DNA from: Streptomyces celluloflavus
GTDB taxonomy: Bacteria; Actinomycetota; Actinomycetes; Streptomycetales; Streptomycetaceae
Direction: 5' to 3'
DNA: 64,000 nt
NCBI GenBank assembly: GCA_000720995.1
Contig: JOEL01000004.1
Coordinates: 62,001 to 126,000, forward strand
Part shown: positions 22,153 through 42,448 of the stretch, piece by piece
Numbering within the stretch: the first letter of the stretch is position 1
How the letters are laid out: each line of letters begins with the position of its first letter
The notes under the pieces: generated by a model
Seen by the model: only the letters and a program-made list of their open reading frames with translations
Database searches by the model: none
Told to the model about the DNA's origin: nothing
Program-made: the position numbers and the translations under genes

Positions 22153-22827
22153 TCACTTCCCGGGTACGGCGCAGCCGTCGTCCCCGCAGACCTCGGCGTC
22201 GCCGGTCGGCAGGATCTGGACGACGCCCTCCGCGTGGGCGCGCTCCAGCGCCTGGCGGAAGACGTCGGCGGGCTGGCCGCCGGAGATGCCGTAGCGCCGG
22301 TCGATGACGAAGAACGGCACCCCGCCCGCGCCCAGCTGCGCGGCCTCGCGCTCGTCGGCCCGTACCGCGTCCGCGTACGCGTCCGGGTCGGCCAGCACCC
22401 GCGCGACGGCGTCGGCGGGCAGTCCCGCGCCGGTGGCGATCTCACCGAGAACGGCGGCGTCGCCCAGCGGCCGGGCCTCGGCGAAGTTGGCCCGGTAGAA
22501 GGCTTGGAGCAGCGCGTCCTGCACGCCGTGCTCCTTGGCCAGGTGCAGCAGCCGGTGCAGGTCGAAGGTGTTGCCGTGGATCCGGTCGGAGCGGTAGCCG
22601 AGCCCCTCACCGGCCGCCGCCTCGGCAACCTTGGCCTCCATGGCCTCGGCCTGCTCACGGGTCACGCCGTACTTCGTGGCGAGCATGTCCAGAATCGGTA
22701 TGTCGGTGGCGGCCGGCGCGTCCGCGTCCAGCTCGAACGAGCGGTGCACCACCTCGACCGCATCACGGTGCGCGAACGCGGCCAGCCCCGCTTCGAAGCG
22801 GGCCTTGCCTATGTAGCACCAGGGGCA
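22153..22827 (-). pseudogene. frnE-like DsbA oxidoreductase, 3' part split by integration
   Basis: This is the larger piece of a FrnE-type DsbA-family dithiol oxidoreductase: CPWCYIGKARFEAGLAAF, then a helical insertion and GGVPFFVIDRRYGISGGQP. The frame stays open beyond the CPWC motif, but that extension (VHTFPQVRRGMAP) is mobile-element DNA. The authentic first 12 codons, MRVEIWSDIACP, lie at 32179-32214 on the same strand. Joining the pieces at the TG shared at 22826-22827 and 32183-32184 restores one reading frame with an intact CPWC active site. In the integrated state the gene is disrupted unless an element-provided start gives an altered N-terminus. Confidence 0.88.
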
Positions 22828-22848
22828 CCCGTGGACTAACGGAGCCAT
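22795..22848. other. Left hybrid attachment site of the element
   Basis: frnE coding sequence ends at the CA dinucleotide 22826-22827 (TG on the minus strand). Element sequence starts at 22828 with a 21-base arm, CCCGTGGACTAACGGAGCC plus AT. This arm is the inverted counterpart of 32162-32182 at the right end, differing at only two of 21 positions. Large serine integrases recognise such quasi-palindromic attP arms, and attP sits next to the integrase gene as it does here. Confidence 0.87.
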
Positions 22849-22907
22849 ACCACGTCTGACCTGCGGAAACGTGTGCACGGGAATGTCTTGGTCCTTACAA
22901 AAGAGTA

Positions 22908-23105
22908 GGGGGCAAGGTCCGCTCCCCACATAGGTCCGGGGCAAGGTCCGCTCCCCCACATGAGTCCGGGAGCGACCTCCGCTCCCTACAGGGAGTAGAG
23001 GAAGGAACTTCCCGCTCTCCACGACTCAGTGGGGCGGGAAACCTCCGCCCTCCCTCCATGACCAGGGGGGAATCCCCCGGTCCCTACCACCCCCGGTCCC
23101 TACCA
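22908..23105 (+). repeat. Repeat cluster upstream of the integrase
   Basis: Imperfect tandem units of about 30 bases built on GGGGCAAGGTCCGCTCCCC are at 22908-22937 and 22938-22969. A shorter derivative with CCGCTCCCTACAGGGAG follows. Farther on, a 16-base unit, CCCCCGGTCCCTACCA, is exactly duplicated at 23074-23089 and 23090-23105. The region lies between the att arm and the integrase start and may contain regulatory or accessory recombination sites. Except for this leader there is no gene between 22849 and 23159. Confidence 0.75.
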
Positions 23106-23159
23106 GGGGCAACCCACACGACGCCGCAGAATCAGGAGGTGGTCACCTTCGGCGAACGG

Positions 23160-24848
23160 ATGGCCATGGAACGCGACGATCTCACCACGCTGCGCTCGCT
23201 CGGATTCGAAGATGACGAGTTGCAGGAATTGAGGCTCTGGGAGCCTGCTACTGGTGACCCCTTCGACTTGGCAGAGATGTACCTACGTCGTAGCAAGAAG
23301 AAGGACACCCTCACCTCCCTGCGGCAGCAAGTTCGGGAAATGTGTGGCCACGCCCGCAGCGAAAACATAAGAATTCGCCATCTGTGGTTCGAACAGCGCA
23401 GCGCGAGCAAGGCGAGCGTGCGGCGCGAGGAGTTCGAAAAGGCCACAGGTGCAGTGATGACAGGGCTCTCCAAAACGCTTTATGTCTTCAAGACCAGTCG
23501 CCTTTCCCGCCGAGGAATGGGGCAGGTTGGACTACTGCTGGATGAGTTCGACACGCGAAAGGCACGGATCTGCGTCACGGCCGAGCGGATTGATTCGTCA
23601 AAGTCACGGATGATCCTTGCGATTCTTTCTGAGCAAGCGCGGGAGCAAGTCGCAGATATCTCACAGTTCGCACAGCTGAGCATCACCGCGAACAAGGCAG
23701 AGGGTAAGTGGACAGGTGGGGTAGCGCCGTACGGCCTCTATTCACCGAAAGGTTCCGGCAAACTCGCCCGTAATCCAAAGGAGTACCCGACGGCGCGTCG
23801 CATTGCTGTCTACCTGCTGAACCGCATGACCCCAGCCTGGATAGCCAACAAGCTCAATAGCGAGGGACTGCGTACGCGCCACGGGCGCAAATGGACAGAC
23901 ACAGGGATCATCAGCCTGTCGCATTCCGTGACATGGGCCGGCTTGGTCGCCAACCGGGAAAAGATGCGAGACGAGCACGGAAACGAACTCGACAAGTACC
24001 ACCGTGGCGGCACGCCACTACTCGACAAGAAGGGACACCCAATCTCTCTGGGTGAGGGTGTCATTTCGTTCTCAGAGCACGTGAAGATCGCACGCATCCT
24101 TGCCGATCGCGCCCATCCGGGCACGACCATTGGCGACCGCTCACGGGGAAAGCGCGAGATCGTAACCATCCTCACGGATATTCTCCGGTGCGGACGCTGT
24201 AAAGGCCCAATGGAAAATGGCGGGATCAACTACCGTTGCCAAGCTCGACAGCGTCAAGGCGTGTCGTCATGCCAAGGAATGTCAACCGACCGCGCCAGGA
24301 TCGATAAGGAGATAGCAGGTATGTGGGAACACCACATACTCAGCCTCTCGCCGGAGTCTGACGTCATCCACGCAATCGCACGTAAGTGGCTCGACTACAA
24401 GGACCCCGCCAAGGAAAAGCGTAAGCAGGAAGTAACGGCCGCACTCGAAAGCGCAGCGTCACGAGAACTCAAGTTGCAGAAAGAATTCTTCATCGGCGGC
24501 GGAATGGACGAAACCCTCTACGACTCCCTGCGCCGCGAGCTTGCGGATCAGATAACCGCCATGAAATCCGAACTGAAGGAACTTTCGAAGAGTGCCGACC
24601 TGACCACACTGGTTCACCCGGAGCCTTTGGCCCTGCTTTGGCAAAACGCGGGACCTAGTGGCCAGCGGGCACTACTCCGGGCAGCAATGAGAAAGATCGT
24701 GCTGAGTCCACCAAAGGGGCGTGGTGATCGCACACCGCTCGAAAGGCGCATGAAAATCGACTGGATAGAAAAGAACACTGACGAGTCACCCCTAGACAAA
24801 GCATTCGCCCACGTCGAGGAGAAGAGGCGCGCTCATCTAGCTGCGTAG
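23160..24848 (+). CDS. int: Large serine recombinase (integrase)
   Basis: This site-specific integrase has about 562 aa. The N-terminal catalytic domain includes RHLWFEQRSASKASVRREEF with candidate nucleophile Ser, LYVFKTSRLSRRG and RICVTAERIDSSKSRM. The Recombinase domain follows (GGVAPYGLYSPKG, RIAVYLLNRMTPAWIANKLN, LRTRHGRKWT). A zinc ribbon, CGRCKGPM plus two later Cys, then leads to a Lys/Glu-rich coiled-coil segment. AGGAGG (23134-23139) is a strong ribosome-binding site, but the first good ATG (23160) is 20 bases away, so GTG 23139 or ATG 23166 are alternatives. It faces inward from the left att site. Confidence 0.93.
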   Translation: MAMERDDLTTLRSLGFEDDELQELRLWEPATGDPFDLAEMYLRRSKKKDTLTSLRQQVREMCGHARSENIRIRHLWFEQRSASKASVRREEFEKATGAVMTGLSKTLYVFKTSRLSRRGMGQVGLLLDEFDTRKARICVTAERIDSSKSRMILAILSEQAREQVADISQFAQLSITANKAEGKWTGGVAPYGLYSPKGSGKLARNPKEYPTARRIAVYLLNRMTPAWIANKLNSEGLRTRHGRKWTDTGIISLSHSVTWAGLVANREKMRDEHGNELDKYHRGGTPLLDKKGHPISLGEGVISFSEHVKIARILADRAHPGTTIGDRSRGKREIVTILTDILRCGRCKGPMENGGINYRCQARQRQGVSSCQGMSTDRARIDKEIAGMWEHHILSLSPESDVIHAIARKWLDYKDPAKEKRKQEVTAALESAASRELKLQKEFFIGGGMDETLYDSLRRELADQITAMKSELKELSKSADLTTLVHPEPLALLWQNAGPSGQRALLRAAMRKIVLSPPKGRGDRTPLERRMKIDWIEKNTDESPLDKAFAHVEEKRRAHLAA

Positions 24849-24862
24849 CCCACAACGCCGTG

Positions 24863-24896
24863 GAAGCCCCGGAAAGCTTAACGCTACCGGGGCTTC
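24863..24896 (+). terminator. Integrase terminator
   Basis: A perfect 10-bp stem GAAGCCCCGG/CCGGGGCTTC (24863-24872 with 24887-24896) lies 15 bases after the integrase stop. Confidence 0.75.
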
Positions 24897-25038
24897 TCCA
24901 TGCCCAGAAATGCAGGACCGCATTAATGCAGCACATATACGAGTACACGCCCAGCACTAACGACGTGATGCCCCGATCACGGAAGGCACATCCGCCGATT
25001 TCTGCGAGCGTTTCGACGTGAAACAACGGAGAGGGAAC

Positions 25039-25329
25039 ATGAATAACCCGCACTACATAGCCCTGGTGAACATGCTCAAAGAAGCAGAATCCGCAGCATG
25101 GGCACTCGTCTGCGGCGGTGACGAACAGGCCCCGAGGACACACCAACTCATAGGCGCCTGCCTGCGGGCCGCTGAAGCACTGTCCGGGGCCCCTCGGTGT
25201 GCGGGGCCCAACTGCCCGCACTCCGTGCCCTACGCGGGCCGTGGACGCCCTCCTCGGTTCTGCTCCCGATCCTGCCGGGACCGGGCCGCCCGCAGCGCCA
25301 GGCAGCGAGAGGAACGAGGTGAAGAGTGA
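25039..25329 (+). CDS. Small zinc-ribbon-like protein
   Basis: This 96-aa protein has an N-terminal helical half (ALVNMLKEAESAAWALV). The C-terminal Cys motif is CAGPNCPHSVPYAGRGRPPR followed by FCSRSCRDRA, a C-x4-C...C-x3-C arrangement likely to bind zinc. The GRGRPxRFCSRxC block recurs at the C-terminus of the next protein. ATG 25039 has GGAGAGGG upstream. Function is unknown; nucleic-acid binding in the element's life cycle is plausible. Confidence 0.7.
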   Translation: MNNPHYIALVNMLKEAESAAWALVCGGDEQAPRTHQLIGACLRAAEALSGAPRCAGPNCPHSVPYAGRGRPPRFCSRSCRDRAARSARQREERGEE

Positions 25330-25401
25330 CGAGTTACTAATTTTTTTGACGCGTAACAAAAAACAGAAAGAAATAAGAAAACTAAGAAAGAAGGAGGCAC
25401 C

Positions 25402-25506
25402 GTGACACGTCATCATCATTCGTCTTCGTCGGAGGAGGTGACCGCATGGGCTACTACTCCGCCGCTGACCAACTCGACCGCTGCGAACGCTGCGGTGAGT
25501 ACCTGA
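25402..25506 (+). CDS. Possible 34-codon leader ORF
   Basis: A GTG behind AAGGAGG (25391-25397) opens a 34-codon frame beginning MTRHHHSSSSEEVTAW. It overlaps the following zinc-ribbon gene in another frame. The ribosome-binding site is excellent and is preceded by an A-rich tract (about 25338-25393) that is very unlike Streptomyces DNA. It may be a leader for translational coupling or simply a fortuitous start. Confidence 0.35.
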   Translation: MTRHHHSSSSEEVTAWATTPPLTNSTAANAAVST

Positions 25507-25862
25507 CAGGCCGACAGGAGCGCTACTGCTCCCCCGCCTGCCGTCAGGCAGCACATCGTGCCCGCAACCGGCCGGCTCACGTCCCCATGAAGCCGTGCGC
25601 GCTGTGCGGGGAACTTTTCGAGCCGCTGCACCACCGACAGAAGTTCTGCAACTACGCGGACGAAGCAGGGACCGAATGCCAGGCCATGCAGGACGACTTG
25701 GAGGAAGCCGCCTGGCTCACCCAGGAGGCCCGTAAAGAGGCCCGGTGCGCTCATTGCTCCAAGCCTGCCGGATGGATCGGCAGAGGCCGTCCTAGAAGGT
25801 TCTGCTCGCGGCGCTGCAAGCAGGCTGACTACCGGAAGCGCGTAGCCCAACAGGCCGCATAG
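25446..25862 (+). CDS. Zinc-ribbon protein with three Cys clusters
   Basis: This 138-aa protein contains three CxxC-type modules: CERCGEYLTG with YCSPACRQAAHRAR, CALCGELFEPLHHRQKFC, and CAHCSKPAGWIGRGRPRR with FCSRRCKQADYRKR. Each looks like a treble-clef or ribbon zinc site followed by basic residues, suggesting DNA or RNA binding. GGAGGAGG lies 6-13 bases before ATG 25446. It precedes the head genes of the element. The third module resembles that of the 96-aa protein upstream. Confidence 0.75.
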   Translation: MGYYSAADQLDRCERCGEYLTGRQERYCSPACRQAAHRARNRPAHVPMKPCALCGELFEPLHHRQKFCNYADEAGTECQAMQDDLEEAAWLTQEARKEARCAHCSKPAGWIGRGRPRRFCSRRCKQADYRKRVAQQAA

Positions 25863-25877
25863 CAGTACCAGTTCCGC

Positions 25878-25903
25878 CCCCGATATGTCACAGGGGGCTT
25901 TTT
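25878..25903 (+). terminator. Intrinsic terminator before head genes
   Basis: GCCCCC and GGGGGC form a 6-bp stem around an 11-base loop, followed directly by TTTTT. This is a classical intrinsic terminator shape, rare in this GC-rich genome and typical of phage DNA. Confidence 0.7.
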
Positions 25904-25967
25904 CATGCCCGAAACCACTTCCGAAAGGAGACGCCACCCCGACCAGCCAGCGGGGTGGCCACGACTC

Positions 25968-26411
25968 ATGGACACCACCGAGAACATTCACGACCAGGAC
26001 GAGCACAACAAAACTGCCGCCACGCCCGCTGAGAGCCCCGCGGCCGAAGACGAGCAGATCACCCCCGACGATCACCATCAGGCCCTAGAGGAGGCGCACA
26101 GCCGTTTGGAGGCGGCACAGAAGCGCATCGACACGATGGTGTTGCGCGAGATCGAGCACCAGGCCCGGCAGCGCCTCGACGTTCCCTCTGACCTTTTCGA
26201 CCTCGGAAAGCATCAGGTTGCCGATCTGCTCGGCGAGAACGGTGACGTTGACGCCGAAAGAGTCACCGCCGCGATCGATGCGCTGCTGAAGTCCCGCCCC
26301 AACCTTGCCGTCCGCCCGACCGGTTGGGGTGATGTGGGCGGCGGGCCGCGCAGCAGCACCAATAGCGACACGCCCGACTGGAACACCGCACTGCGCGGAC
26401 ATCAGGGCTAA
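25968..26411 (+). CDS. Scaffold-like acidic coiled-coil protein
   Basis: This 147-aa acidic protein lies directly upstream of the capsid gene, where phage scaffolding proteins are encoded. It has a long helix (QALEEAHSRLEAAQKRIDTM), then LDVPSDLFDLGKHQVADLL and a C-terminal NTALRGHQG. The helical acidic composition and the DAERVTAAIDALL segment fit small phage head or scaffold proteins. ATG 25968 is preferred because the earlier ATG 25905 lies in a terminator tail, but its ribosome-binding site is weak. Confidence 0.65.
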   Translation: MDTTENIHDQDEHNKTAATPAESPAAEDEQITPDDHHQALEEAHSRLEAAQKRIDTMVLREIEHQARQRLDVPSDLFDLGKHQVADLLGENGDVDAERVTAAIDALLKSRPNLAVRPTGWGDVGGGPRSSTNSDTPDWNTALRGHQG

Positions 26412-26455
26412 CACGCCGAACCGACCAGTCCGACACACCGAAGAGAAGAGAAAAC

Positions 26456-27298
26456 ATGTCCATTTACACCAACACGCCCGGCACGCAGGGCATCCTGCCC
26501 GACGAGTACGGAGCGCTGGTCGAAAAGCCCGTCAAGGAACTGTCCCTGGCCATGAAGCTCGGCACGGTGGTCAACACGGCAAGTTCCGTCTACCGCATTC
26601 CGATCCTCGCAGGGGACGTGACAGTGGGTGCCGTCGCCGAAGGAGCCGAGATCACACCCTCTGATGTGAAGTTCGACGAGAACAAGATCAAGCCTTCCAA
26701 GTTCGCCGGTCTGACAGTCATCAGCCGGGAAATGGCGGAGGACAGTTCCCCGTCCGCTGGGGAACAGGTTGGCCGCTCCATTGCCCGGCAGATATCGAAC
26801 AGCGTTGATAACGCATTCCTGAATGCGCTGACCGACCCGAACCCCGCCGGGCTCGGTTCGCTCAAGGGGATTTCCAAGGTGGACGCCCCGGTTGTCTACG
26901 CGAATCTCGATCCGTTCGAAGAGGCTGTTTCCATCTCAGAAGCAGCCGGCGGAAATATCACGGCATGGGTAATGACCGCTGCGACTGCACTCGATATCGC
27001 CAAGCTCAAGGATCAGGCCAACTCGAACCGCAGTCTCCTCAATACGGATATGACGATGGCGGGGCGGCGGCAGGTCCTCGGGCGCCCGGTATATGTGACG
27101 CCCTTTGTTCAGCCGGACATTGTGTACGGCGTCAGTCGTGATGATCTGCTGACGATCGTGCGCAGTGGTACTCGGCTGGATGTTGATAAGTCCGTTTACT
27201 TCACCAGTGACCGTGTGGCTGTTAAAGGCACTATGCGTGTCGGCTTCGGCTTCCCCATTGAAGCCGCGCACGTCCGTATTCAGAACGCTGCCAAGTAG
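26456..27298 (+). CDS. HK97-family phage major capsid protein
   Basis: This 280-aa capsid protein begins near the point where HK97-type capsids are normally cleaved (TPGTQGILPDEYGALVEKP), so no N-terminal delta domain is present. Typical blocks are VYRIPILAGDVTVGAVAEGA, FAGLTVISREMAEDS, ARQISNSVDNAFLNAL, AWVMTAATALDIAKLKDQ, GRPVYVTPF and the C-terminal VAVKGTMRVGFGFPIEAAHV. It should form the icosahedral shell. Neither a protease nor a portal gene accompanies it. A strong terminator follows the gene, as is usual for highly expressed capsid genes. Confidence 0.92.
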   Translation: MSIYTNTPGTQGILPDEYGALVEKPVKELSLAMKLGTVVNTASSVYRIPILAGDVTVGAVAEGAEITPSDVKFDENKIKPSKFAGLTVISREMAEDSSPSAGEQVGRSIARQISNSVDNAFLNALTDPNPAGLGSLKGISKVDAPVVYANLDPFEEAVSISEAAGGNITAWVMTAATALDIAKLKDQANSNRSLLNTDMTMAGRRQVLGRPVYVTPFVQPDIVYGVSRDDLLTIVRSGTRLDVDKSVYFTSDRVAVKGTMRVGFGFPIEAAHVRIQNAAK

Positions 27299-27305
27299 CC
27301 AGGAC

Positions 27306-27336
27306 GGGCCGGGGGTTAGCGATGAGCCCCCGGCCC
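27306..27336 (+). terminator. Terminator after the capsid gene
   Basis: A perfect 10-bp stem GGGCCGGGGG/CCCCCGGCCC (27306-27315 with 27327-27336) is followed by TGTT, eight bases after the capsid stop. Confidence 0.8.
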
Positions 27337-27352
27337 TGTTGGGAGACCCCCT

Positions 27353-27730
27353 ATGCCCCGTAAGCCCCGCACCCCGTGCTCTGTCCCTGGATGTCCCGAA
27401 CTCACCAATGGCGGGCGCTGTGCTGCACATGAGAAGCAAGCGAACAGGCAACGCGTAACACGTGGAGGCAGTTCGTACGGTCCTCTCTGGCCACGTATCC
27501 GCAGCGCATTCCTATACGTCAATCCGTGGTGTGTGCTGTGCGGTCGCGAGGCGAAAGTAGCTGACCATTTTCCGCACAGCCGACGGGACCTCATATCTCA
27601 AGGTGTGAGCGATCCTGATTCGTTCAAGTGTCTGCGCGCATTGTGTGCACGCTGCCACAGCAGAGAGACAGCAAAGCATCAACCAGGAGGATGGGCGGCC
27701 GAAAAGGCACCGAAAGCACCACCATTCTGA
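27353..27730 (+). CDS. HNH endonuclease
   Basis: This 125-aa phage-type HNH nuclease has an N-terminal CSVPGCPELTNGGRCAAH zinc-like motif. The nuclease core is NPWCVLCGREAKVADHFPHS followed by LRALCARCHSRETAKH (two CxxC pairs with the D-H and final H). In many cos-type phages such a protein is encoded beside the terminase and assists DNA cleavage during packaging. Here it sits between the capsid and the small terminase genes. Confidence 0.92.
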   Translation: MPRKPRTPCSVPGCPELTNGGRCAAHEKQANRQRVTRGGSSYGPLWPRIRSAFLYVNPWCVLCGREAKVADHFPHSRRDLISQGVSDPDSFKCLRALCARCHSRETAKHQPGGWAAEKAPKAPPF

Positions 27731-27858
27731 TTAGCGGACCAGGCGGGCGCTCCTCTCCTCCTGAAAAGGGGCGCGGGCGGGAGGCAAAAGACTCTCGCCG
27801 GAGCTGCGGGTGTTTTTGGTACCCGCGACCGGCACCCCATACAAGGAAGTGAGGTTGC

Positions 27859-28356
27859 ATGGCCGACAGATACAGGCCCAAGTCAGCCGTTCAGCAGGCA
27901 CGCGAAGGGAACCCTTCAAAGGCAGCCATCAAAGAGGGCGTGATCGTGCCCCGCGCGATCCTCACCGAACCAGACTGGACGGGAGTTTTCCCGCCCTCGC
28001 CCGATCCTGCTGTTGAACCAGCGAACATCCGATGCCGGGAAGTCGCGTCCGAGGAATGGCGGCGCATCGTCCCCATTCTGGAAGTCGCCGCCGGGATCGG
28101 CGAAGTGGACCACACCACTGTGAAAGACCTGTGCGTGTGCGTCGCCCGCATCGACCAGGCCGAGCGAGACCTGTCCGAGCGCGGATTGATCGTGACCGCC
28201 GAGCGCGGGACGGTGAAGAACGGAGCCGCGACCATCGCGGGGCAGTATCGCAGCCAACTCGCGCGATACATCCGGGAGTTGGGTCTCTCGCCGAGCGCCC
28301 GAACAGCGATCACAGCGCCGGAGCCCGAGGATGACGGCTCGGACGTGTGGGACTGA
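27859..28356 (+). CDS. terS: P27-family phage terminase small subunit
   Basis: This 165-aa protein starts with a basic N-terminus (RYRPKSAVQQAREGNPSKAA). The P27 small-terminase core is EWRRIVPILEVAAGIGEVDH, VKDLCVCVARIDQAERDLSE, GLIVTAERGTVKNGAATIAG and SQLARYIRELGLSPSAR. TerS recognises DNA to be packaged. In satellites a private TerS can redirect a helper phage's large terminase to satellite DNA. No large terminase follows; the next gene is a DUF397 gene on the other strand. Confidence 0.9.
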   Translation: MADRYRPKSAVQQAREGNPSKAAIKEGVIVPRAILTEPDWTGVFPPSPDPAVEPANIRCREVASEEWRRIVPILEVAAGIGEVDHTTVKDLCVCVARIDQAERDLSERGLIVTAERGTVKNGAATIAGQYRSQLARYIRELGLSPSARTAITAPEPEDDGSDVWD

Positions 28357-28372
28357 CCGCCTCACCACAGAA

Positions 28373-28418
28373 CCCCCGCGCCCGTCTCCCCGAGATTCCG
28401 GGACTGCGGGCGTGGGGG
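28373..28418 (+). terminator. Terminator after terS
   Basis: A 12-bp stem with one G-T pair joins 28373-28384 and 28407-28418, followed by CTTTC, 16 bases after the terS stop. Confidence 0.75.
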
Positions 28419-28494
28419 CTTTCTGCGTTCCAGCGACGGCTAGCCCCGTCACCCAGTGGGAGAAGTGCGCGGGAGCCCCTCTGTCTCGCTGGGC

Positions 28495-28710
28495 TTACAC
28501 AGTGGTAAGCCTGTCGCACTGGACAGCAGAGACAAACGCGGACCAGGCGGCCGGGGCGATCGCGAGCACGGGGCCGTGCGGATCCTTGGAGTCACGGACG
28601 GGGACGATGCCCGTTGCGGCGGCAGTGGCCGGTGCCCACTCGATGCACTCACCGCCGTTGCTCTGGCTGTAGCTGGAGCTGGTCCAGTCGGGGAAGTCGG
28701 CATTGGTCAT
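28495..28710 (-). CDS. DUF397 domain protein of the element
   Basis: This 71-aa DUF397 protein contains WTSSSYSQSNGGECIEWAPA and VPVRDSKDPHGPVLAIAPAA. It is nearly identical over its central third to the chromosomal DUF397 at 5061. Its ATG overlaps the XRE stop by four bases (ATGA), the same coupled layout. The stop codon lies inside a perfect 7-bp hairpin (28492-28498 with 28505-28511), which may end this transcript. Confidence 0.9.
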   Translation of the reverse strand: MTNADFPDWTSSSYSQSNGGECIEWAPATAAATGIVPVRDSKDPHGPVLAIAPAAWSAFVSAVQCDRLTTV

Positions 28711-29522
28711 GAGCAGTCCTTAACAATGCAGTTGATCAGCTCCGCCGTCTCGTCCGGCGGCGCGGCCATGGCCACCAACAGATCATAGGCATCCTGGGCT
28801 TGGGCAACGTCGGCAGGTTCGGACAGCACGAAGCCGCGCGGGAAGCCGTCCACGTGCGCTACGTCCGGCCCATCCGTGAGGGTGAGCAACCCAAAGGGGC
28901 TGACTACCAAATTGTTGACCTTGCTCCCGGGGATGATCTGGACGCGATGCCTGGGTGTCTCGGCAAGCTCGTGGATGTGGTGGAGCTGAGCGCGCATGAT
29001 CTCTGCGCTACCCACCGGGTTCCGTAGGGCGGACTCGTTGAGGATCAACCAGAGCCGCGCCGGATCTTCGTCACGCGTCAAGATCTCCTGCCGCTCCATT
29101 CGCACGCGGATCAGGTCTGCGAAGTTCGTTGGCCGACCGGCCCGCAACACTTCTTCGGCGTACGGATGGATCTGCACAAGCCCCGGAAGAAGCGTGGGGT
29201 GGAACATCTTCACCACCGCCGCCTTCTTCTCCAACGCAACGTACGGCGCGAACCAATCCGGAATGCCCCGCCGGGCCAGCTTGTTCCGCAGCCGAAGGTA
29301 GACCCCAGGCGTACCGGCGACGCGGTCCATGGCTTTGGCGAATGACTCGGATGCCATCACGCTGCCGTTCTCGACCTTGGACACCTGCCCTTGGTTGTAG
29401 CGGAGTTCGGTGGCGAACTCGCCTTGTGAAAGGCCCATGGACTTCCTGAGCGCCTTGACCTCTTCGCCGAAGTACGAAGCCCCGTCCTTGGCGCCACTCT
29501 CCTGGCTGACTCCTTCGACCAT
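28707..29522 (-). CDS. XRE regulator with DUF5753 domain
   Basis: This 271-aa helix-turn-helix regulator contains FGEEVKALRKSMGLSQGEFA, NQGQVSKVENGSV, then the DUF5753 region (TLLPGLVQIHPYAEEVL, RQEILTRDEDPARLWLILNE, PRHRVQIIPGSKVNN). ATG 29522 is chosen because GGGAG lies 8-12 bases upstream; a TTG three codons earlier is possible. It is coupled to DUF397 and divergent from the small-gene operon at 29646. Within the element it could control maintenance or excision, but its homologues are general streptomycete regulators. Confidence 0.88.
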   Translation of the reverse strand: MVEGVSQESGAKDGASYFGEEVKALRKSMGLSQGEFATELRYNQGQVSKVENGSVMASESFAKAMDRVAGTPGVYLRLRNKLARRGIPDWFAPYVALEKKAAVVKMFHPTLLPGLVQIHPYAEEVLRAGRPTNFADLIRVRMERQEILTRDEDPARLWLILNESALRNPVGSAEIMRAQLHHIHELAETPRHRVQIIPGSKVNNLVVSPFGLLTLTDGPDVAHVDGFPRGFVLSEPADVAQAQDAYDLLVAMAAPPDETAELINCIVKDCS

Positions 29523-29645
29523 CTGTTTCAACTCCCGGATATGCCGAGTCCGTTGGCATGGATTTAGACCTGGTCAGCGTACGCCCAAGTGCCGACTCTT
29601 GGGAGGTCAGGCGCAACGGGGCCGCGAGACACGAAAGGCACAGCT

Positions 29646-29840
29646 ATGGCGACCGAACTACCGAACAGACGGCCGTTAGTCGGGCCTGCCCCCGTGGACG
29701 GCTGCCGCATCTGCTACGCGGCCGTACAGGGCCGGGCCGCCGCGTGGACGCGGGGCGACGAGCGGGGAGTTCAGAGCTTCAACGAGATGGTTGATCAGCA
29801 CCCCCACCAGCGCGCCACGGACCGGCGGGGGACGACATGA
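29646..29840 (+). CDS. Small CxxC protein of XRE module
   Basis: This 64-aa protein of unknown function has GPAPVDGCRICYAAVQGRAA near residues 13-32 and a basic tail. It corresponds to the first half of the fused 86-aa protein at 6392. AAAGG lies upstream. It overlaps the next gene by four bases (ATGA). Confidence 0.65.
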   Translation: MATELPNRRPLVGPAPVDGCRICYAAVQGRAAAWTRGDERGVQSFNEMVDQHPHQRATDRRGTT

Positions 29841-30040
29841 GCCCGGACGCCTTGACGTGGCCGCCGTGCGACTGCCCCCGGCCTGACTGTCCCTACCGCG
29901 CGGACACGGTCCGGGACGGGCTGACGTGCAGCACGCCGGTTTACGCCACGGACAGTCCCGCCCTTGCGAGGCTGCGGGCGCGTGTTCGTGAGGACTGTGA
30001 GAGCCGGCGTCGTCTCGGTCCCCTGGGGCGGCTGCTGTGA
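29837..30040 (+). CDS. Small Cys-rich protein of XRE module
   Basis: This 67-aa protein of unknown function has an N-terminal PPCDCPRPDCPYRA motif that could bind metal. Its C-terminus contains SPALARLRARVREDCESRR, shared with the end of the protein at 6392. It is coupled by four-base overlaps to both neighbours. Confidence 0.62.
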   Translation: MSPDALTWPPCDCPRPDCPYRADTVRDGLTCSTPVYATDSPALARLRARVREDCESRRRLGPLGRLL

Positions 30041-30327
30041 CGGTGCAGGGGTCCGCCACAGAACCGCCCCAGCCTCCCACTGATCCTTTCGCGGGCACTC
30101 CGTACGAGGGCAGTCCCGAGGGCTGGTGGACGCCGTACGGCGGGGCGCTGGACACGGAATCGGGCGTGGTCTGCGTACCGCCCGGCCCCCGCCGCCACGC
30201 CGCACCGCCGAAGCCTCCGACGCGGACGGTGCGGGTGATCGGCCGGTTTGGATGGCCCGCGTTCGTTTCTGTGGTCTTCCTGTCCTGCTTCGGCGTGATC
30301 GCCCTGGCCGTATCCGGCCGCCTATGA
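30037..30327 (+). CDS. Small membrane protein of XRE module
   Basis: This 96-aa protein has a Pro-rich N-terminus with DPFAGTPYEGSPEGWWTPYG, shared with the start of the methyltransferase fragment at 6649. A single C-terminal membrane helix (PAFVSVVFLSCFGVIALAVS) follows. It starts at GTG overlapping the previous stop (GTGA). It is probably an inner-membrane protein with a cytoplasmic N-terminus. Function is unknown. Confidence 0.65.
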   Translation: MTVQGSATEPPQPPTDPFAGTPYEGSPEGWWTPYGGALDTESGVVCVPPGPRRHAAPPKPPTRTVRVIGRFGWPAFVSVVFLSCFGVIALAVSGRL

Positions 30328-30630
30328 GACTCCGCCCCTGTCCGGATGAGAAGCCTCAATCCGTCCCCCACGGACGAAGGTCACCCCGGGCAGGGGCGGG
30401 CACCACCCCCGTCCCGATCTATGAGCGGCCCTTGCAGATTGGGGCGGGCCCACCCGACCGAACCAGCAGAAGGAGGCTGAGCCGTGCGCGACGATAGGGA
30501 CGTGGCGATACCGACCTAGGAATAGGCGCGTTCCCTGCGCCTGAAACGGATTCGTCCGGCTGTCTCCAAGGGCAGCGGCAACCGAACGGGTCAGCAAATG
30601 CAGTGCACCACTCAGAAGAGAGAAGCACGC
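30328..30630 (+). promoter_or_regulatory. Leader with long hairpin and 11-codon ORF
   Basis: A 14-bp stem with one G-U pair joins 30332-30345 (CCGCCCCTGTCCGG) and 30386-30399. A near copy of this hairpin precedes the radical SAM gene at 34325-34389. At 30470-30475 AAGGAG precedes GTG 30484, opening an 11-codon frame (MRDDRDVAIPT) that ends at 30519. This may be the stub of a deleted gene or a leader peptide. The rest has no recognised feature. Confidence 0.45.
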
Positions 30631-31155
30631 ATGACAGTAGTAGCGAACGACCTAAGCACGGGCCGGGGGCTGGTTAGCCCGGAACTGTTCGACAGCTTGG
30701 TTCACTTCGTGGTCACCCACAACGGGCAGCCCACGGAGCGGGCGGAGCGCATCGCCGACCAGGCGGTTGCATTCGTCGCCACGGCCGCAACGGCCACGGT
30801 GGGCATGGTCCCGTCGGATGACGTGGACTTCGGCGTTCACGCGCTCATTCTGCACACCAAGGAATACGCGGAGTTCTGCCAGGAACACGCGGGCCGGTTC
30901 CTGCACCACAACCCCCGGCCAGGCGGTGGAGGGCGCACCCTCGAAGCAGTGACAGCTTCGGCACACGCCATGAAGGCCGCGCGCTTCATGGTCATCGATG
31001 AACTGTGGACCGTGAACGGGGAAAACGCCGCTCAGTGCGACGCGGACTGCGGACGCCCGTACGGAGCCTTCGGCGGTGGCAAGGACGAAGACGACGGCGG
31101 GGGCGGCAACCCCCCGACCGGCGACAGCGACGACGGCCGCGACTACAACAGCTAA
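30631..31155 (+). CDS. Gly/Asp-rich C-terminal protein, unknown
   Basis: This 174-aa protein is not recognised. The N-terminal 110 residues are helical (LVSPELFDSLVHFVVTHNGQ, ERIADQAVAFVATAATAT, ALILHTKEYAEFCQEHAGRF). It ends in a Cys pair (CDADCGRPYGAF) and a disordered acidic Gly/Asp-rich tail. ATG 31-codon-equivalent choices upstream are rejected because AGAAGAGAGAAGC directly precedes ATG 30631. It lies upstream of the kinase, with a terminator between them. Confidence 0.6.
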   Translation: MTVVANDLSTGRGLVSPELFDSLVHFVVTHNGQPTERAERIADQAVAFVATAATATVGMVPSDDVDFGVHALILHTKEYAEFCQEHAGRFLHHNPRPGGGGRTLEAVTASAHAMKAARFMVIDELWTVNGENAAQCDADCGRPYGAFGGGKDEDDGGGGNPPTGDSDDGRDYNS

Positions 31156-31180
31156 CCGCCAGTAGTCTCACCCGACCTGT

Positions 31181-31213
31181 GGGGCCGATCCTCTCAAACG
31201 GGGGATCGGCCCC
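31181..31213 (+). terminator. Terminator hairpin
   Basis: A perfect 11-bp stem GGGGCCGATCC/GGATCGGCCCC (31181-31191 with 31203-31213) followed by TT lies between the Gly/Asp-rich gene and the kinase gene. Confidence 0.82.
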
Positions 31214-31234
31214 TTCCGATGAGAGGATTCAACG

Positions 31235-32065
31235 ATGTCCGGACAAGGGCCATATGACCTCCCCACCCACGTTCAAAGCGCCGTAACGCCGCTGAGCAAG
31301 CGACTCGTCGTCAACCGGCGCGGCTCCACCGTCTGGGATGTACAGAGTCGCGCCGGCCGTTTCGCTGTCAAGCTCGGCTACCCCACCCAAGCGCACGGAT
31401 GGACAGCATGGGCCCCCGCCCGAGAGGCCGTCATCCTTCGCCAACTAATCCCTGATGAGGTTCAGTTCGGAGAGTGGGAAGAGGGCACGTGGAGCGCGCA
31501 GCCATGGCGCGACGGCGAATCCCTCTACAACCTGTGGGAGCCCCACCGGCAGGCGGCAGAGCCCTCAACGCCCAACCTTGACGAAGCGCGTTCATGCGCC
31601 GTTGCGCTCACCCATCTACATGAAGGCGGTTGGGTACACGGCGACGTGCAGCCCAATCACTTCGTCATCGGGCCTACCGGAACCTTCCTGATCGACTTGG
31701 CGCTAGCACAGGGCGGAGAAGTCCCGAAGATCTACGACTTCCGATATCGAGGCTGCCTAGTCCACTACGAAGCGCCGGAGATCTCGCGGAGCATCCTGGA
31801 GAGCGGCACCGCAGTGCCGACGAAGGAAGCCGACGTTTACGCGCTGGGTGCATCCTGGTTCATCTCCGCCACCGGGTGGAGGCACGTCTCCTACCCGGAC
31901 GACGCCGACCGGAAAGACCAGCGACAAGCCATCGTGGACAAGCCACACCGGCCCATCAACGTACCGGGCACCCTCGGCAAGATCATTGAGCAGATGATGA
32001 GTCGCGACCCGGCCGACCGGCCGACCGGCGCGGAGATCTGCGAAGAGCTGGGCCACGCCCGCTGA
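31235..32065 (+). CDS. Protein kinase-like protein, divergent
   Basis: This 276-aa cytoplasmic kinase-fold protein has no membrane or sensor domain. The VAIK-like lysine is in RFAVKLGYP. The catalytic loop reads HGDVQPNHFVI (HGD for HRD, Asn kept). The metal-binding motif reads IDLALAQ in place of DFG, followed by YEAPEI. An ADVYALGASWF helix and DPADRPTGAEICEEL complete the C-lobe. It may be catalytically active because the Lys, Asp, Asn and Asp are retained. It is the last gene before the right att site, so it is element cargo. Confidence 0.83.
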   Translation: MSGQGPYDLPTHVQSAVTPLSKRLVVNRRGSTVWDVQSRAGRFAVKLGYPTQAHGWTAWAPAREAVILRQLIPDEVQFGEWEEGTWSAQPWRDGESLYNLWEPHRQAAEPSTPNLDEARSCAVALTHLHEGGWVHGDVQPNHFVIGPTGTFLIDLALAQGGEVPKIYDFRYRGCLVHYEAPEISRSILESGTAVPTKEADVYALGASWFISATGWRHVSYPDDADRKDQRQAIVDKPHRPINVPGTLGKIIEQMMSRDPADRPTGAEICEELGHAR

Positions 32066-32161
32066 GCCCCCGAAGCGGCCCCGCCTGGACCCCATCCGGG
32101 CGGGGCTCTGTACTGTCCCGGACGGGCCGCATAGACGCTGGTCAGGGCCTCGCGGTAACCT

Positions 32162-32214
32162 ATGGCTCCGTTGGTTCACGGGCAAGCGATGTCCGACCAG
32201 ATTTCGACGCGCAT
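32162..32214. other. Right hybrid attachment site and frnE 5' end
   Basis: Element arm 32162-32182 ends in CACGGG, then the shared CA core (32183-32184), then the first codons of frnE read on the minus strand from ATG 32214 (MRVEIWSDIACP). The reconstructed attP centre is CACGGG-TG-CCCGTG, perfectly symmetric around the crossover dinucleotide. The reconstructed attB encodes the WSDIACPWCYIG active-site region. Confidence 0.87.
32179..32214 (-). pseudogene. frnE first 12 codons, separated
   Basis: This is the N-terminal part (MRVEIWSDIACP) of the DsbA/FrnE gene whose remainder ends at 22827. Reading on into the element gives an immediate TGA (32178-32176), so this fragment encodes nothing useful by itself. 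Confidence 0.85.
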
Positions 32215-32313
32215 GAGCTGACTTTCCTCGGGGTGAATGTGCCCCTGTGCAACCACGCGGGAGACCGCTCTATTCCGGCCACATCACGGCGCGGGCACGG
32301 CAGGCCCGGCTCT

Positions 32314-32612
32314 GAAGCGGGCCTTGCCCGTGCGGCACCGGTGGCGCTTGTGGGCTGACGGGGCCATACCACGCCTGACCTGTGTAAACGGAGGAATGAA
32401 CGCACAACACCGCAGACTCAGGAGGTGGTCCTCTTCGACGGACCGACGACCACGGAACGCGATGGCCTGATCACACTGCACTCACCCGGATCCGGGGGCC
32501 GCGAGTCGCCTGAGTCGTGGAAGGCATGGACTGCGTGGACGGGAACGCTCTGGTGCTGTGCCGCGGGTGCCACGGCCTCAAGACCGCTGCAGAGTTCGGG
32601 GCTGCCGCATGA
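32314..32612 (+). mobile_element. Fossil of a related att-integrase end
   Basis: Bases 32314-32390 align without gaps to 22795-22871 (frnE GKARF region plus att arm), roughly 80% identical by eye and mostly transitions. Bases 32411-32510 then match the integrase ribosome-binding site and first codons (ERD-L-TL-S-G pattern). The original start codons are lost and the frame decays. A fragment at 32535-32612 reads VLCRGCHGLKTAAE, like the end of an HNH nuclease. This is debris of an earlier insertion of a relative in the same orientation. Bases 32215-32778 carry no other gene. Confidence 0.7.
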
Positions 32613-34234: not shown

Positions 34235-34324
34235 GTGCCAAGGTCCGGAAACCCACGGCTGCAACAAGGACCTACGCCGACGGTGACACCAACGGAGAGG
34301 GCCGCAGCCGGCCACCCATGAACT

Positions 34325-34389
34325 CCGCCCCTGCCGGACGTAGCCGGATCTCGTTCCCCATGCAATTCGGAATCCCGGCAAGGGCGGGG
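34325..34389 (+). promoter_or_regulatory. Leader hairpin before radical SAM gene
   Basis: CCGCCCCTGCCGG (34325-34337) can pair with CCGGCAAGGGCGG (34375-34387) with one mismatch. It ends 33 bases before the radical SAM start. The same arms occur at 30332-30399 in the element, so it may be a conserved regulatory structure of these modules. Confidence 0.45.
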
Positions 34390-34422
34390 AACCTCAAACC
34401 ACCAGTCGTAAGGAGTCTCACG

Positions 34423-35331
34423 ATGAGCACTGCCCAAAACCGACTGAAATTTGCATGGTTGGAGGTGACGGGACTCTGTAACGAGTTCTGCGACCACTGC
34501 TATGCGGACTCGTCTCCCAAGGGAACGCACGGGGACATGACCGTGCAGGACTGGAAGCTCGTCATCGAGCAACTCGCGGACGTGGGCGCGCTTGATGTGC
34601 AGTTCATCGGCGGGGAGCCGACGCTGTACCCGCACCTGCGTGAACTGATCACGCACGCCCACGGAACGGGGCTCTCCATCGAGGTGTTCTCCAACATGAC
34701 CCACATTCGGGATGAGCTGTGGGAGACCTTCACGGACTGCGAGGTCAAACTCGCAACGTCGTACTACTCCGACAGCGCGCAGGAACACGACCGGGTGACC
34801 AGGCTCCGGGGGTCTCACCGACGAACCCGGGCGAACGTGGAAAAGGCGCTCAGCCTGGATATCCCGCTGCGTGGCGGTGTCGTTGCGGTACGGGAGGGTC
34901 AACGCGTCCAAGAGGCGGCAAGGGACCTTGCCGCCCTCGGTGTGGGACAAGTCAGCGGCGACCGGACGCGGGCATTCGGGCGGGCGAGCAAGGGCGCGTC
35001 GCCGGCCCTCGGAGACCTGTGCGGGCACTGCGCCCACGAGAAGTGCGCGATCGGTCCGGCCGGGGAGGTGTGGCCGTGCGTGCTCGGGCGTTCCCTGACC
35101 CTCGGCAACGTGCTGGACACGCCGCTCGCCGACATCTGGGGCGGGACGCGGATGGCCGAGGTATCAGCCGGGATTTCGGCGGTGCACGGGGAGGGCGCAC
35201 AGTCGTGCACGCCTCCGCAGTTCCTCCCCATGTGCGGGCCGTGCGGGCCGTGTGTCCCGTCGGTGGGTCATTGCGACCCGAGGGAGGCGGGCGGTGTGGC
35301 GACCACGGCTACGATCGGCGCACCCGTTTGA
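34423..35331 (+). CDS. Radical SAM/SPASM protein
   Basis: This 302-aa enzyme has the radical SAM cluster motif CNEFCDHCY at about residues 18-26 (VTGLCNEFCDHCYADSS) and the GGEPTLYP SAM-binding motif. A C-terminal SPASM-type region carries CGHCAHEKCAIGPAGEVWPC, LGNVLDTPLADIWGG and CGPCGPC, which should bind auxiliary Fe-S clusters. Such enzymes usually modify ribosomal peptides or proteins. ATG 34423 has AAGGAGT upstream. It is followed 27 bases later by a 115-aa gene. The substrate is not identified. Confidence 0.88.
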   Translation: MSTAQNRLKFAWLEVTGLCNEFCDHCYADSSPKGTHGDMTVQDWKLVIEQLADVGALDVQFIGGEPTLYPHLRELITHAHGTGLSIEVFSNMTHIRDELWETFTDCEVKLATSYYSDSAQEHDRVTRLRGSHRRTRANVEKALSLDIPLRGGVVAVREGQRVQEAARDLAALGVGQVSGDRTRAFGRASKGASPALGDLCGHCAHEKCAIGPAGEVWPCVLGRSLTLGNVLDTPLADIWGGTRMAEVSAGISAVHGEGAQSCTPPQFLPMCGPCGPCVPSVGHCDPREAGGVATTATIGAPV

Positions 35332-41262: not shown

Positions 41263-42212
41263 CAGGCGCGGGGCCCCGGTGCGCCCGCGACCAGCGCGAG
41301 TCCGCGGTCGATCAGCGCGGCGAGCTCCTCGACATGCGCCGGGTCCGGTTCGCTCAGCGGCGGCCGGACCTCGCCGACGTCCGTGCCGCGCAGCCGCACC
41401 CCCGCCTTGACCAGCGATACGGCATAGCCGCGGCCCCGGTTGCGCAGTTCGACCAGCGGCCGGTAGAAGCCGTCCAGCAGCCGGGCGACGGTGTCCTGGT
41501 CGCCGGTGGTCAGCGCCCGGTGGAAGGCGAGGGCGATCTCGGGGGCGAAGGCGAAGACGGCGGAGGAGTAGCGGCGGACGCCCAGGCCGAAGTAGGCGGG
41601 GCCGGTGAGTTCGGCGGTGGGCAGGCCGTTGAAGTAGAGGAAGTCCGCGTCGGCGGCCTCGGTGCGGACGGCGCTGATGATGCGCTGGAGCAGGTCGAGG
41701 TCGCCCAGCCCGTCCTTGAGGCCGATGATGCCCGGGGTCCTGGCCAGCGCGACGACGGTGGCCGGTGTGAAGACGGCGTTGTCGCGCTGGTAGACGATGA
41801 CGGGGAGGGGGGTGGCGGCGGCGAGTGCGGTGTAGTGCCGCAGCAGTCCTCGCTGGCCGGCGGCGACGAGGTAGGGCGGCATGGCGAGCAGCCCGTCGGC
41901 GCCCGCTTCATGGGCGAGGCGGGCGAACCGGAGGGCGAGCGCGGTGCCGTACCCCGCGCCGGCGATCACCGGGACCCGGCCCGCGGTCTCCTCGACGGCG
42001 GCGGCGACGCAGTCGGCGAACTCCTCGGGGGTGAGCGCGTGGAATTCGCCGGTGCCGCAGCAGGCGAACACGGCGGCCGCGCCCGCGTCGATGCCGCCGC
42101 GCACATGGGCGCGGAAGGCCGCCAGGTCCACGGCGCCGTCCGGTGTGTACGCGGTCACGGGGAAGAACAGCAGTCCGTCGAGGCGAGCGGCGAGCGGCGA
42201 GTCTGAGGTCAC
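41262..42212 (-). CDS. kdgD: 5-dehydro-4-deoxyglucarate dehydratase
   Basis: This 316-aa enzyme of the DHDPS/NAL family has LLFFPVTAYTPDGAVDLAAF, ACCGTGEFHALTPEEFADCV, PVIVYQRDNAVFTPATV and the Schiff-base Lys in GIIGLKDGLGDLDLL. It converts 5-dehydro-4-deoxyglucarate to 2-oxoglutarate semialdehyde with loss of CO2 and water. GTG 42212 is supported by GGGAGA just upstream. It is first in a minus-strand operon and divergent from the uronate dehydrogenase gene. Confidence 0.9.
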   Translation of the reverse strand: MTSDSPLAARLDGLLFFPVTAYTPDGAVDLAAFRAHVRGGIDAGAAAVFACCGTGEFHALTPEEFADCVAAAVEETAGRVPVIAGAGYGTALALRFARLAHEAGADGLLAMPPYLVAAGQRGLLRHYTALAAATPLPVIVYQRDNAVFTPATVVALARTPGIIGLKDGLGDLDLLQRIISAVRTEAADADFLYFNGLPTAELTGPAYFGLGVRRYSSAVFAFAPEIALAFHRALTTGDQDTVARLLDGFYRPLVELRNRGRGYAVSLVKAGVRLRGTDVGEVRPPLSEPDPAHVEELAALIDRGLALVAGAPGPRA

Positions 42213-42235
42213 GGGCTCTCCCTGGCATGCATGTG

Positions 42236-42275
42236 CATGTCTCTGATCAGTGTCCATATCTCTGAACGCGGCCAC
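42236..42275. promoter_or_regulatory. Candidate IclR operators, tandem copies
   Basis: Two adjacent 20-base units begin CATGTCTCTGATCAGTGTCC and CATATCTCTGAACGCGGCCA. The second closely matches the motif before the uronate dehydrogenase gene and the one before iclR. They lie 24-63 bases upstream of the kdgD start codon. Confidence 0.55.
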
Positions 42276-42387
42276 GCTAGAACAGCCCTCCCGCGCCGGT
42301 CAAGGGTCCGAAACGACCGCCCCGCAAGCGGATTTGACGAGTCCGTCCACTGTCTTGACCGGCCGCGATACCGCTCCCTACCGTGTC

Positions 42388-42407
42388 CACATCTCTGAAT
42401 GCCGTCC
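42388..42407. promoter_or_regulatory. Candidate IclR operator before uronate dehydrogenase
   Basis: CACATCTCTGAATGCCGTCC lies about 42 bases upstream of the ATG and is the best match to the unit at 42256-42275. Confidence 0.55.
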
Positions 42408-42448
42408 GCGCATACGGCCTCGCAGCTCAGCCCGAGGAGTACCCGCCC

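Follow-up and report, generated by a model that had tools for sequence, protein, structure and literature searches.

Phage satellites are known to pirate capsids in two ways: the shell of the helper is reshaped, as by the Staphylococcus aureus pathogenicity islands (SaPIs), P4 and the phage-inducible chromosomal island-like elements (PLEs), or a whole capsid and motor are brought along, as by the capsid-forming phage-inducible chromosomal islands (cf-PICIs), which take only tails from the helper. The available text of PMC12409344 describes cf-PICIs as encoding all proteins for capsids and packaging, and particles of cos-type SaPIs are described in the accessible parts of PMC5052747 and PMC8569155 as containing portal and tail proteins of the helper. 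Here we describe a 9,357-bp element in the chromosome of Streptomyces celluloflavus, situated between attachment (att) sites at 22828-32184 of a window of 64,000 nucleotides (contig JOEL01000004.1, positions 62,001-126,000; coordinates below are those of the window). Judged from its sequence, the element is probably a cos-type phage satellite with a small shell of its own, pirating the motor, portal and tail of a phage that resembles Streptomyces phage Rowa. As in satellites generally, it is integrated and has an integrase and att sites, while its genes for head, motor and tail are incomplete. It also has packaging genes and a packaging signal in common with its presumed helper, namely HNH and terminase small subunit (TerS) genes of the Rowa type and a cos-like site.

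From left to right, the element codes for an integrase, two small Cys-rich proteins, a scaffold, a major capsid protein (MCP), HNH and TerS, followed by cargo. The TerS and HNH proteins are 57.4 and 59.7% identical, respectively, to those of Rowa (42,890 bp), which is a complete 43-kb phage with a terminase large subunit (TerL), an SPP1-type portal, a protease, tail genes and a capsid of the GP7 type. The Rowa genome opens with the TerS gene (67-552) and has HNH within its final 0.8 kb (42,116-42,472). Because HNH and TerS adjoin in the element, the gap between them corresponds to the joined ends of Rowa. The position of the HNH protein and its relatives point to a packaging-type endonuclease. 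The Rowa genome ends in CGGCAGGGA and starts with GGCAAAAACC, and phage AbbeyMikolon likewise terminates in CGGCAGGGA; the deposited ends of Rowa are taken here as the physical ends of the DNA.

The sequence CGGCAGGGAGG occurs as a single copy, 36-55 nt past the HNH stop codon, in five of the eight elements with both MCP and HNH; the window and loci L016 and L017 are without it. The motif GACCAGG was considered as a cos core and dropped, being common by chance, and the CGGCAGGGAGG site was used instead. A matrix was then made from phage sites only (10 sites, 4 of them distinct, 9 of the 10 having been found by a pattern derived from Rowa together with satellites, the window excluded). With this matrix, position 27774 tops both strands of the window (28.4, with the runner-up at 12.6), and the top rank falls directly after HNH in eight of nine satellites. 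When IMG/VR was searched with the cos pattern, nine contigs were obtained, all with Rowa-type TerS and TerL by BLAST, and those that reach far enough also hold portal, protease, scaffold and capsid genes. A related pattern with up to two mismatches was found in 9 of 392 genomes of the genus, and the reversed control in none. These nine loci are L027 (identical to L018), L105, L108 and L120-L125. An HNH match lies beside the pattern in eight of them, the ninth (L124) being without one and looking decayed, and no match to the TerL or portal of Rowa was found in the stretches fetched around the nine.

The following course of events would fit these data. On growth of a Rowa-like phage in the cell, the element would excise and be replicated. 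Its scaffold and capsid protein would build a small shell for about 9.4 kb on the portal of the helper, and its TerS and HNH, together with the TerL of the helper, would cut its own cos at 27782|27783, so that one unit would be packaged with the TerS end first and the HNH end last. Tail and lysis would come from the helper. In a new cell, the integrase would insert the circle into dsbA by recombination of attP and attB. Since a cos phage packages unit lengths and a unit of 9.4 kb would badly underfill a 43-kb head, a shell of its own would solve the size problem.

Several observations weigh against this reading. HNH is not the last gene of Rowa, as one small open reading frame (ORF) comes after it, and CGGCAGGGA is missing from the ends deposited for Kromp, Peas and SF1, phages whose HNH or TerS also match. 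The cos of the element has diverged, with 27 of 42 positions identical to Rowa in a simple 42-nt match, a score that is not significant against a shuffled maximum of 28 in 60 probes; the cos assignment is based on position, family and the phage-only matrix, not on a single probe. With that matrix the L016 site ranks second rather than first, the cos pattern with up to two mismatches is absent from the own genome of the element, and four of the eight elements with MCP and HNH do not have a TerS of this type. The own genome also gave no match to TerL_ATPase PF03354, to the portal families PF04860 and PF05133, or to Rowa TerL; phrog_2 gave a single match, weak and partial, on a different contig (4.7e-6), and in a control the TerL and portal of Rowa do match PF03354 and PF05133. 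No primase or Rep match to Pfam or PHROG was found in the element, unlike classical PICIs with their own replication gene. Finally, the available text of PMC5052747 describes a shortened cos-SaPI of 10.9 kb that was packaged as concatemers in large heads, so that a small shell of its own need not be obligatory.

The search for a resident helper was extended to 26 genomes and records, sets that include the own genome and virus records and that differ in two members for PF05133. PF03354 was matched in 2, PF04860 in 4, PF05133 in 4 and phrog_2 in 9, the own genome included. The search with PF04860 only was misleading, because the Rowa portal belongs to PF05133, with which it was repeated. None of these TerL and portal places falls in an element locus, since contig or coordinates differ; doubtful contigs of genomes G397 and G396 were compared by length, and three places in G397 by sequence. 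In G260, G397, G396 and G085, genomes that contain satellites, the portal or TerL loci were rejected as resident helpers, as they have no close match to Rowa (TerL 28 and 32% identical in two of them). In G010, a TerL gene (G010:C2:5056712-5058292) is 39% identical to that of Rowa and lies about 650 kb from a satellite-type locus with cos, L123. This TerL locus is a possible resident helper.

The capsid protein has the HK97 fold. An AlphaFold model based on a 20-row alignment has a mean predicted local distance difference test score of 79.4 and a predicted template modelling score of 0.78. When this model was used in Foldseek, phage proheads ranked first, the best being the HK97 prohead 8fqk (E 4e-15), with the capsid of cf-PICI EcCI2 at rank 36 and one encapsulin at rank 38. 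Matches to the MCP at E ≤ 1e-10 are present in 11 of the 392 genus genomes. Besides the own genome, there are six that are at least 40% identical, one of them over half the length only, and four distant ones at 24-29%. Comparison of the capsid gene with those of L016, L017, L024 and L025 gave nonsynonymous rates (dN) of 0.063-0.144 and synonymous rates (dS) of 1.08-1.43; for TerS the values against L016, L017 and L024 are 0.078-0.137 and 0.91-1.04. The HNH gene is less constrained, with dN of 0.23-0.34 at near-saturated dS. The genes for capsid and TerS are intact, and these rates place both under purifying selection. Neither of two doubts raised in a preliminary description of the locus, that the relatives might all be whole prophages and this copy a unique deletion derivative, or that the capsid gene might be broken elsewhere in the lineage, was borne out; the close relatives are not whole prophages.

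The capsid matches 131 records of the phage collection. Of the best 40, the top 12 are Mycolicibacterium genomes of 10.9-11.1 kb (30-31% identity, E down to 2e-24), and the lowest E among the others of these 40 is 4e-13. The scaffold matches 10 records of the collection, all of them Mycolicibacterium genomes of 10.9-11.0 kb. It is also up to 45% identical over 84 amino acids to scaffolds of Rowa-type IMG/VR contigs (L089). The capsid, on the other hand, shows no sequence relation to the Rowa-type capsid (BLASTP E 0.5; hhalign probability 0.5%), and the families differ, being PF05065 in the element and PF20911 in Rowa. The scaffold region shared with the Rowa-type contigs may mark contact with a common partner, for example the portal of the helper. 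An MCP tree places 20 satellite-like rows on one side of a branch, with a support of 57/12; because of this support, and because two of the nine phage rows (L009 and L010) are wrong-frame fragments, the tree shows nothing firm. In L038, a separate IMG/VR contig of 13.5 kb, this capsid family is represented twice, by genes about 9 kb apart (46 and 42% identical to that of the element), and the contig is perhaps two tandem satellites.

These comparisons also bear on another use of the capsid protein, in which it would join that of the helper in a mixed small shell, as the Ccm protein of SaPIbov5 does with phage phi12. The precedent comes from a cos system. In the available text of PMC8569155, the satellite protein Ccm is described as a homologue of the helper capsid protein, with 24% identity, that forms the pentamers of a T=4 shell in which the helper protein forms the hexamers. 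The scaffold region in common with Rowa-type contigs would fit such a mixed shell. The different capsid families and the result of the profile comparison argue against it, as does the scaffold gene that the element has beside its capsid gene, phi12 being described in the same source as having no separate scaffold. We consider a mixed shell unlikely and prefer a satellite that builds its own.

The boundaries of the element are defined by a 2-nt TG crossover core at 22826-22827 that recurs at 32183-32184. The reconstructed attP consists of 24 + 2 + 24 nt, and its P arms are palindromic at 20 of 24 positions. Such a layout with palindromic arms is expected of a large serine integrase. When the flanks were joined in silico, one uninterrupted DsbA/FrnE protein resulted (MRVEIWSDIACPWCYIGK...), and the crossover falls in the codons of its CPWC motif; the coordinates given in the preliminary description were thus exact. 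Through an ATG within attL, the 3' portion of dsbA may have gained a chimeric start (MAPLVHGCPWC). The GC content of the element is 0.63, compared with 0.727 for the flanks. With the joined dsbA site as query, a match at E ≤ 1e-3 was obtained in 51 of 61 genomes. Matches that cross the junction, indicating an empty site, were found in 45 of the 60 genomes besides the own (query start ≤ 40 and end ≥ 138, with the junction at query 60-62), and the remainder are short, start late or show no match. In relative loci L061-L069, an intact N terminus runs into CPWCYIG in six of nine, and the exact motif was not obtained in the other three. A sibling element in another species (L104, genome G149) occupies the same dsbA codons. 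Its right arm is identical to that of the element at 22 of 23 positions and its left arm at 18 of 22, it has the same broken MRVEIWSDIACP*, and its size is about 9.7 kb versus 9.36 kb for the element.

The features of the element and its borders are collected in Table 1. The preliminary description, made from the sequence alone, had named the integrase, the Cys-rich pair, the scaffold, an HK97-type capsid without a delta domain, HNH and TerS, and the Pfam and PHROG matches uphold these names, except that the Cys-rich pair gave weak matches only. For TerS, the family is PF05119, and "P27" was a label of that description's own. A scan of the 15 ORFs of the element with PHROGs revealed no large terminase, portal, protease, tail or lysis family, in agreement with the reported absence of TerL, portal, protease and tail genes before the att site. 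Unlike the gene list given there, the element does not stop at TerS, as about 3.8 kb of cargo (DUF397, HTH-DUF5753, small ORFs and a kinase-like gene) continues to attR. The strong terminators ascribed to each gene were confirmed in part. Strong hairpins are present, five of six folded stretches exceeding shuffled versions of themselves in stability (z -2.3 to -4.2; z is -0.9 for the HNH-TerS stretch), but they are mostly without a T run, and a scan with the terminator consensus found 3 sites versus 7.9 expected. No consensus promoter was found, with 1.3 expected.

Table 1. Features of the element and its borders, in window coordinates
Feature	Position	Strand	Match or remark
dsbA/frnE 3' part, interrupted	22153..22848	-	PF01323 3.9e-34
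attL	22826..22851		TG core 22826-22827 and left P arm 22828-22851; sibling L104 inserted at same site
Large serine integrase	23058..24848	+	phrog_95 1.4e-58; Resolvase PF00239 4.8e-11; true start maybe 23139 or later
Small Cys-rich (zinc-ribbon-like) protein 1	25018..25329	+	Weak matches only; homologues in L016, L017, L024, L026, L104, L105
Small Cys-rich (zinc-ribbon-like) protein 2	25446..25862	+	Weak matches only; 65% in L017, 71% in L104
Head scaffolding protein	25905..26411	+	phrog_4708 1.1e-10
Major capsid protein (280 aa), HK97 fold without delta domain	26456..27298	+	PF05065 3.2e-26
HNH endonuclease	27353..27730	+	phrog_589 1.5e-17; Pfam HNH 0.014, below its cut-off
Predicted cos site	27774..27803	+	Predicted linear ends 27782 | 27783; phage-only matrix
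Terminase small subunit TerS	27859..28356	+	PF05119 3e-20
DUF397 protein, cargo or regulation	28495..28710	-	PF04149 3.2e-21
Helix-turn-helix (HTH)-DUF5753 regulator, cargo or regulation	28707..29531	-	PF19054 1.9e-45
Two small cargo ORFs (29837-30040, 30037-30327)	29837..30327	+	No Pfam match
Cargo protein, function not assigned	30598..31155	+	Homologues in L019, L034
Protein-kinase-like cargo protein	31235..32065	+	PF00069 1.2e-8; PADLOC PD-T4-6 1.9e-10
attR	32159..32184		Right P arm 32159-32182 and TG core 32183-32184
dsbA 5' end	32185..32214	-	MRVEIWSDIA then CP* across junction; read likewise in L104

The integrase is 39% identical over 595 residues to that of L084, a Rowa-type prophage contig. 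Among the cargo, the ORF at 30037 is also present in satellite loci L018, L021 and L027, and the kinase-like gene at the right end weakly resembles the phage-defence family PD-T4-6. Primases were seen elsewhere: D5_N was matched in L108, with homologues in L106 and L019, the L106 gene being 72% identical to the L108 protein. Outside the element, to the right of attR, a second and decayed relative has left a relic of a left end at 32289..32520 on the plus strand, with a dsbA fragment, P arm and integrase start, which is seen as direct repeats D1 (72%) and D2 (77%). Beyond the relic come what by eye looks like a scrap of HNH, then an HTH gene and a gene of the radical-SAM/SPASM type. The latter (34318-35331) shows a partial match to models of prokaryotic viperins (PADLOC pVip 2.3e-14, residues 50-176) and has relatives in satellite loci L105, L032 and L021 and a fragment in L120. 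L105 and L106, which have related integrases, seem to be inserted in an LtrA-like gene, not in dsbA.

A search for the gene order in other loci, as the preliminary description had proposed, was successful. The whole order from integrase through the two Cys-rich genes, scaffold, MCP and HNH to TerS was found again in L017 (MCP 85% identical), where the integrase is only distantly related (24%). The part from one Cys-rich gene to TerS recurs in L016 and L024; L016 has an MCP that is 89% and a TerS that is 88% identical, and no match to the integrase of the element at E 1e-3. Conversely, L104 has the integrase (90%, apparently frameshifted) and TerS (84%) without a capsid gene, and its slot for scaffold and capsid is filled by two genes of 88 and 165 amino acids. 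Relatives of this two-gene module occupy the same slot in L105, L108, L121, L122 and L125; in L125 the first member alone passed the cut-off, and a similar second ORF adjoins. The members have 80-106 and 156-165 amino acids, the second being rich in AEKARKAAEAAAAKLAEAE-like helix. For the pair of L105, neither member has a PHROG match and the larger has no Pfam match. It is possible that the module is a capsid-resizing pair.

Across 17 elements with this HNH or cos, MCP is present in 8 (the window, L016, L017 and L024-L028), the pair in 6, neither in 3 (L120, L123 and L124), and both in none. MCP loci without such an HNH were left out (L019-L021, L029-L049, L058 and L059), and no pair occurs in those either. 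By hand arithmetic the chance of zero overlap is 0.007, a value that is indicative only, the elements being related. The mutual exclusion of MCP and pair suggests that the exchanged slot serves head size or head building. We tentatively propose, as an idea that may well turn out wrong, a family of satellites in which a head-size cassette, flanked by the integrase on one side and by HNH-cos(-TerS) on the other, can be exchanged. The cassette would be either a scaffold and a helper-foreign capsid, assembled on the portal of the helper and filled by its motor, or a two-gene module that resizes the shell of the helper. If so, a foreign capsid lattice can dock on an unrelated portal, and a single satellite lineage alternates between two modes of capsid piracy.

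The recurrence of this gene set also bears on what the element is for and where it came from. As an interference island, the element would use its capsid and scaffold to disrupt the assembly of incoming Rowa-like phages and to shield its host, and spread would be secondary. Ccm alone is described as reducing phi12 titres in the available text of PMC5052747, and a defence role for the cargo kinase would agree with its weak family resemblance. Still, a gene that served defence only could do without cos, TerS, HNH and integrase, which accompany the capsid gene in several relatives, and the roles of defence and satellite may coexist; we regard interference as the main function as very improbable. 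A deletion derivative, the dying remnant of a larger prophage, would account for the small number of genes and for the decayed related relic just right of the element, and the apparent frameshift in the integrase of sibling L104 could be read in the same way. The reduced set, however, recurs in several species with other integrases, the att sites are intact, the element and L104 are similar in size, dN is far under dS, and the capsid differs from the Rowa type, which together leave little room for decay as the origin. The preliminary description had itself offered two readings. An actinobacterial satellite that encodes a capsid and uses a large serine integrase is favoured by the recurring reduced set and by the intact, selected capsid and TerS genes. 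The other, a domesticated shell or encapsulin-like compartment retained by the host, is hardly credible: HK97-fold shells do include encapsulins, one of which appears in the Foldseek list, but the cos-like site and TerS disfavour it, phage proheads top that list, scaffold, HNH and cos surround the gene in relatives, and its presence in the genus is rare.

The satellite that we favour can be compared with several described systems. The cos-type SaPIs SaPIbov4 and SaPIbov5 (Ccm, helper phi12), in the accessible parts of PMC5052747 and PMC8569155, are likewise small integrated elements with a helper-type cos and one capsid homologue. They served to qualify the remark in the preliminary description that such satellites, as far as known, have a larger number of head genes, which holds for cf-PICIs and fails for cos-SaPIs, with their one homologue. 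The element resembles SaPIbov5 in having a cos in common with its presumed helper, and differs in that its capsid is unrelated to that of this helper by the comparisons given above, has no delta domain and is accompanied by a scaffold. It also has HNH, TerS and a serine integrase, and its host is a Streptomyces.

The candidate Mycobacterium PICIs, including phiRv1 and phiRv2, are similar in gene content, with an integrase and a major capsid gene, and some have genes for a terminase and a scaffold and an integrase of the serine type (PMC10654092, in the text available). In that text they are defined solely by integrase and capsid, with induction by a helper undemonstrated, and neither a cos site nor a type of helper is named for them, in contrast to the element. 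The element does possess both integration machinery and a major capsid gene, although the definition in PMC10654092 was made for Mycobacterium.

Closest by capsid (12, among the best 40 of 131 matching records), and the only relatives by scaffold (10), are Mycolicibacterium aichiense "phages" of 10.9-11.1 kb, OR387110-OR387121, on which no paper was found. They were deposited as phages from soil. The two records that were opened, Alyssa1 and WillG, have a serine integrase, a short gene annotated as "terminase", an adaptor, a stopper, a capsid and a tape-measure gene; adaptor, stopper and tape-measure gene set them apart from the element. Neither has a TerL or portal match (PF03354, PF04860, phrog_2, PF05133) or an annotated large terminase or portal, and the "terminase" gene of WillG has no Pfam match. 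We infer that these genomes are satellites whose DNA came from particles. With its tape-measure protein (L059 8075-10030; 651 amino acids, phrog_305 3.9e-190), WillG may determine how long the tails of its particles are as well.

Like cf-PICIs, the element is small and has a capsid gene of its own; it differs from them in having no detectable TerL, portal or protease. MulchRoom and MiniFlayer are Streptomyces satellites that also have capsid, scaffold and HNH genes and no primase, but they carry both terminase subunits, a portal and an adaptor (PMC10690885, in the text available). Rowa-type phages (Rowavirus) share HNH, cos and TerS of the same type with the element, and the integrase similarity to L084 is a further likeness; Rowa differs in being a complete 43-kb phage. 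The element is not a complete prophage either, as it has no set of TerL, portal, tail and lysis genes. Encapsulins are shells of the HK97 fold that hold protein cargo and have no genes for packaging a genome, whereas TerS, HNH and a cos-like site adjoin the capsid gene here.

In the literature searched, mostly outside subscription journals, no paper was found on an element of such make-up or on a Rowa-type helper. Satellites with a capsid gene are already known, and what is new here is the cos-like site in the HNH-TerS gap and this combination of genes. If an element supplies no more than its shell, scaffold, TerS and HNH, it would stand between the two known modes of piracy and raise the question of how a capsid mounts on the portal of another lineage. 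Because the shared cos-like site names the type of helper, a Rowa-like phage, Streptomyces satellites with a capsid gene become directly testable in the laboratory.

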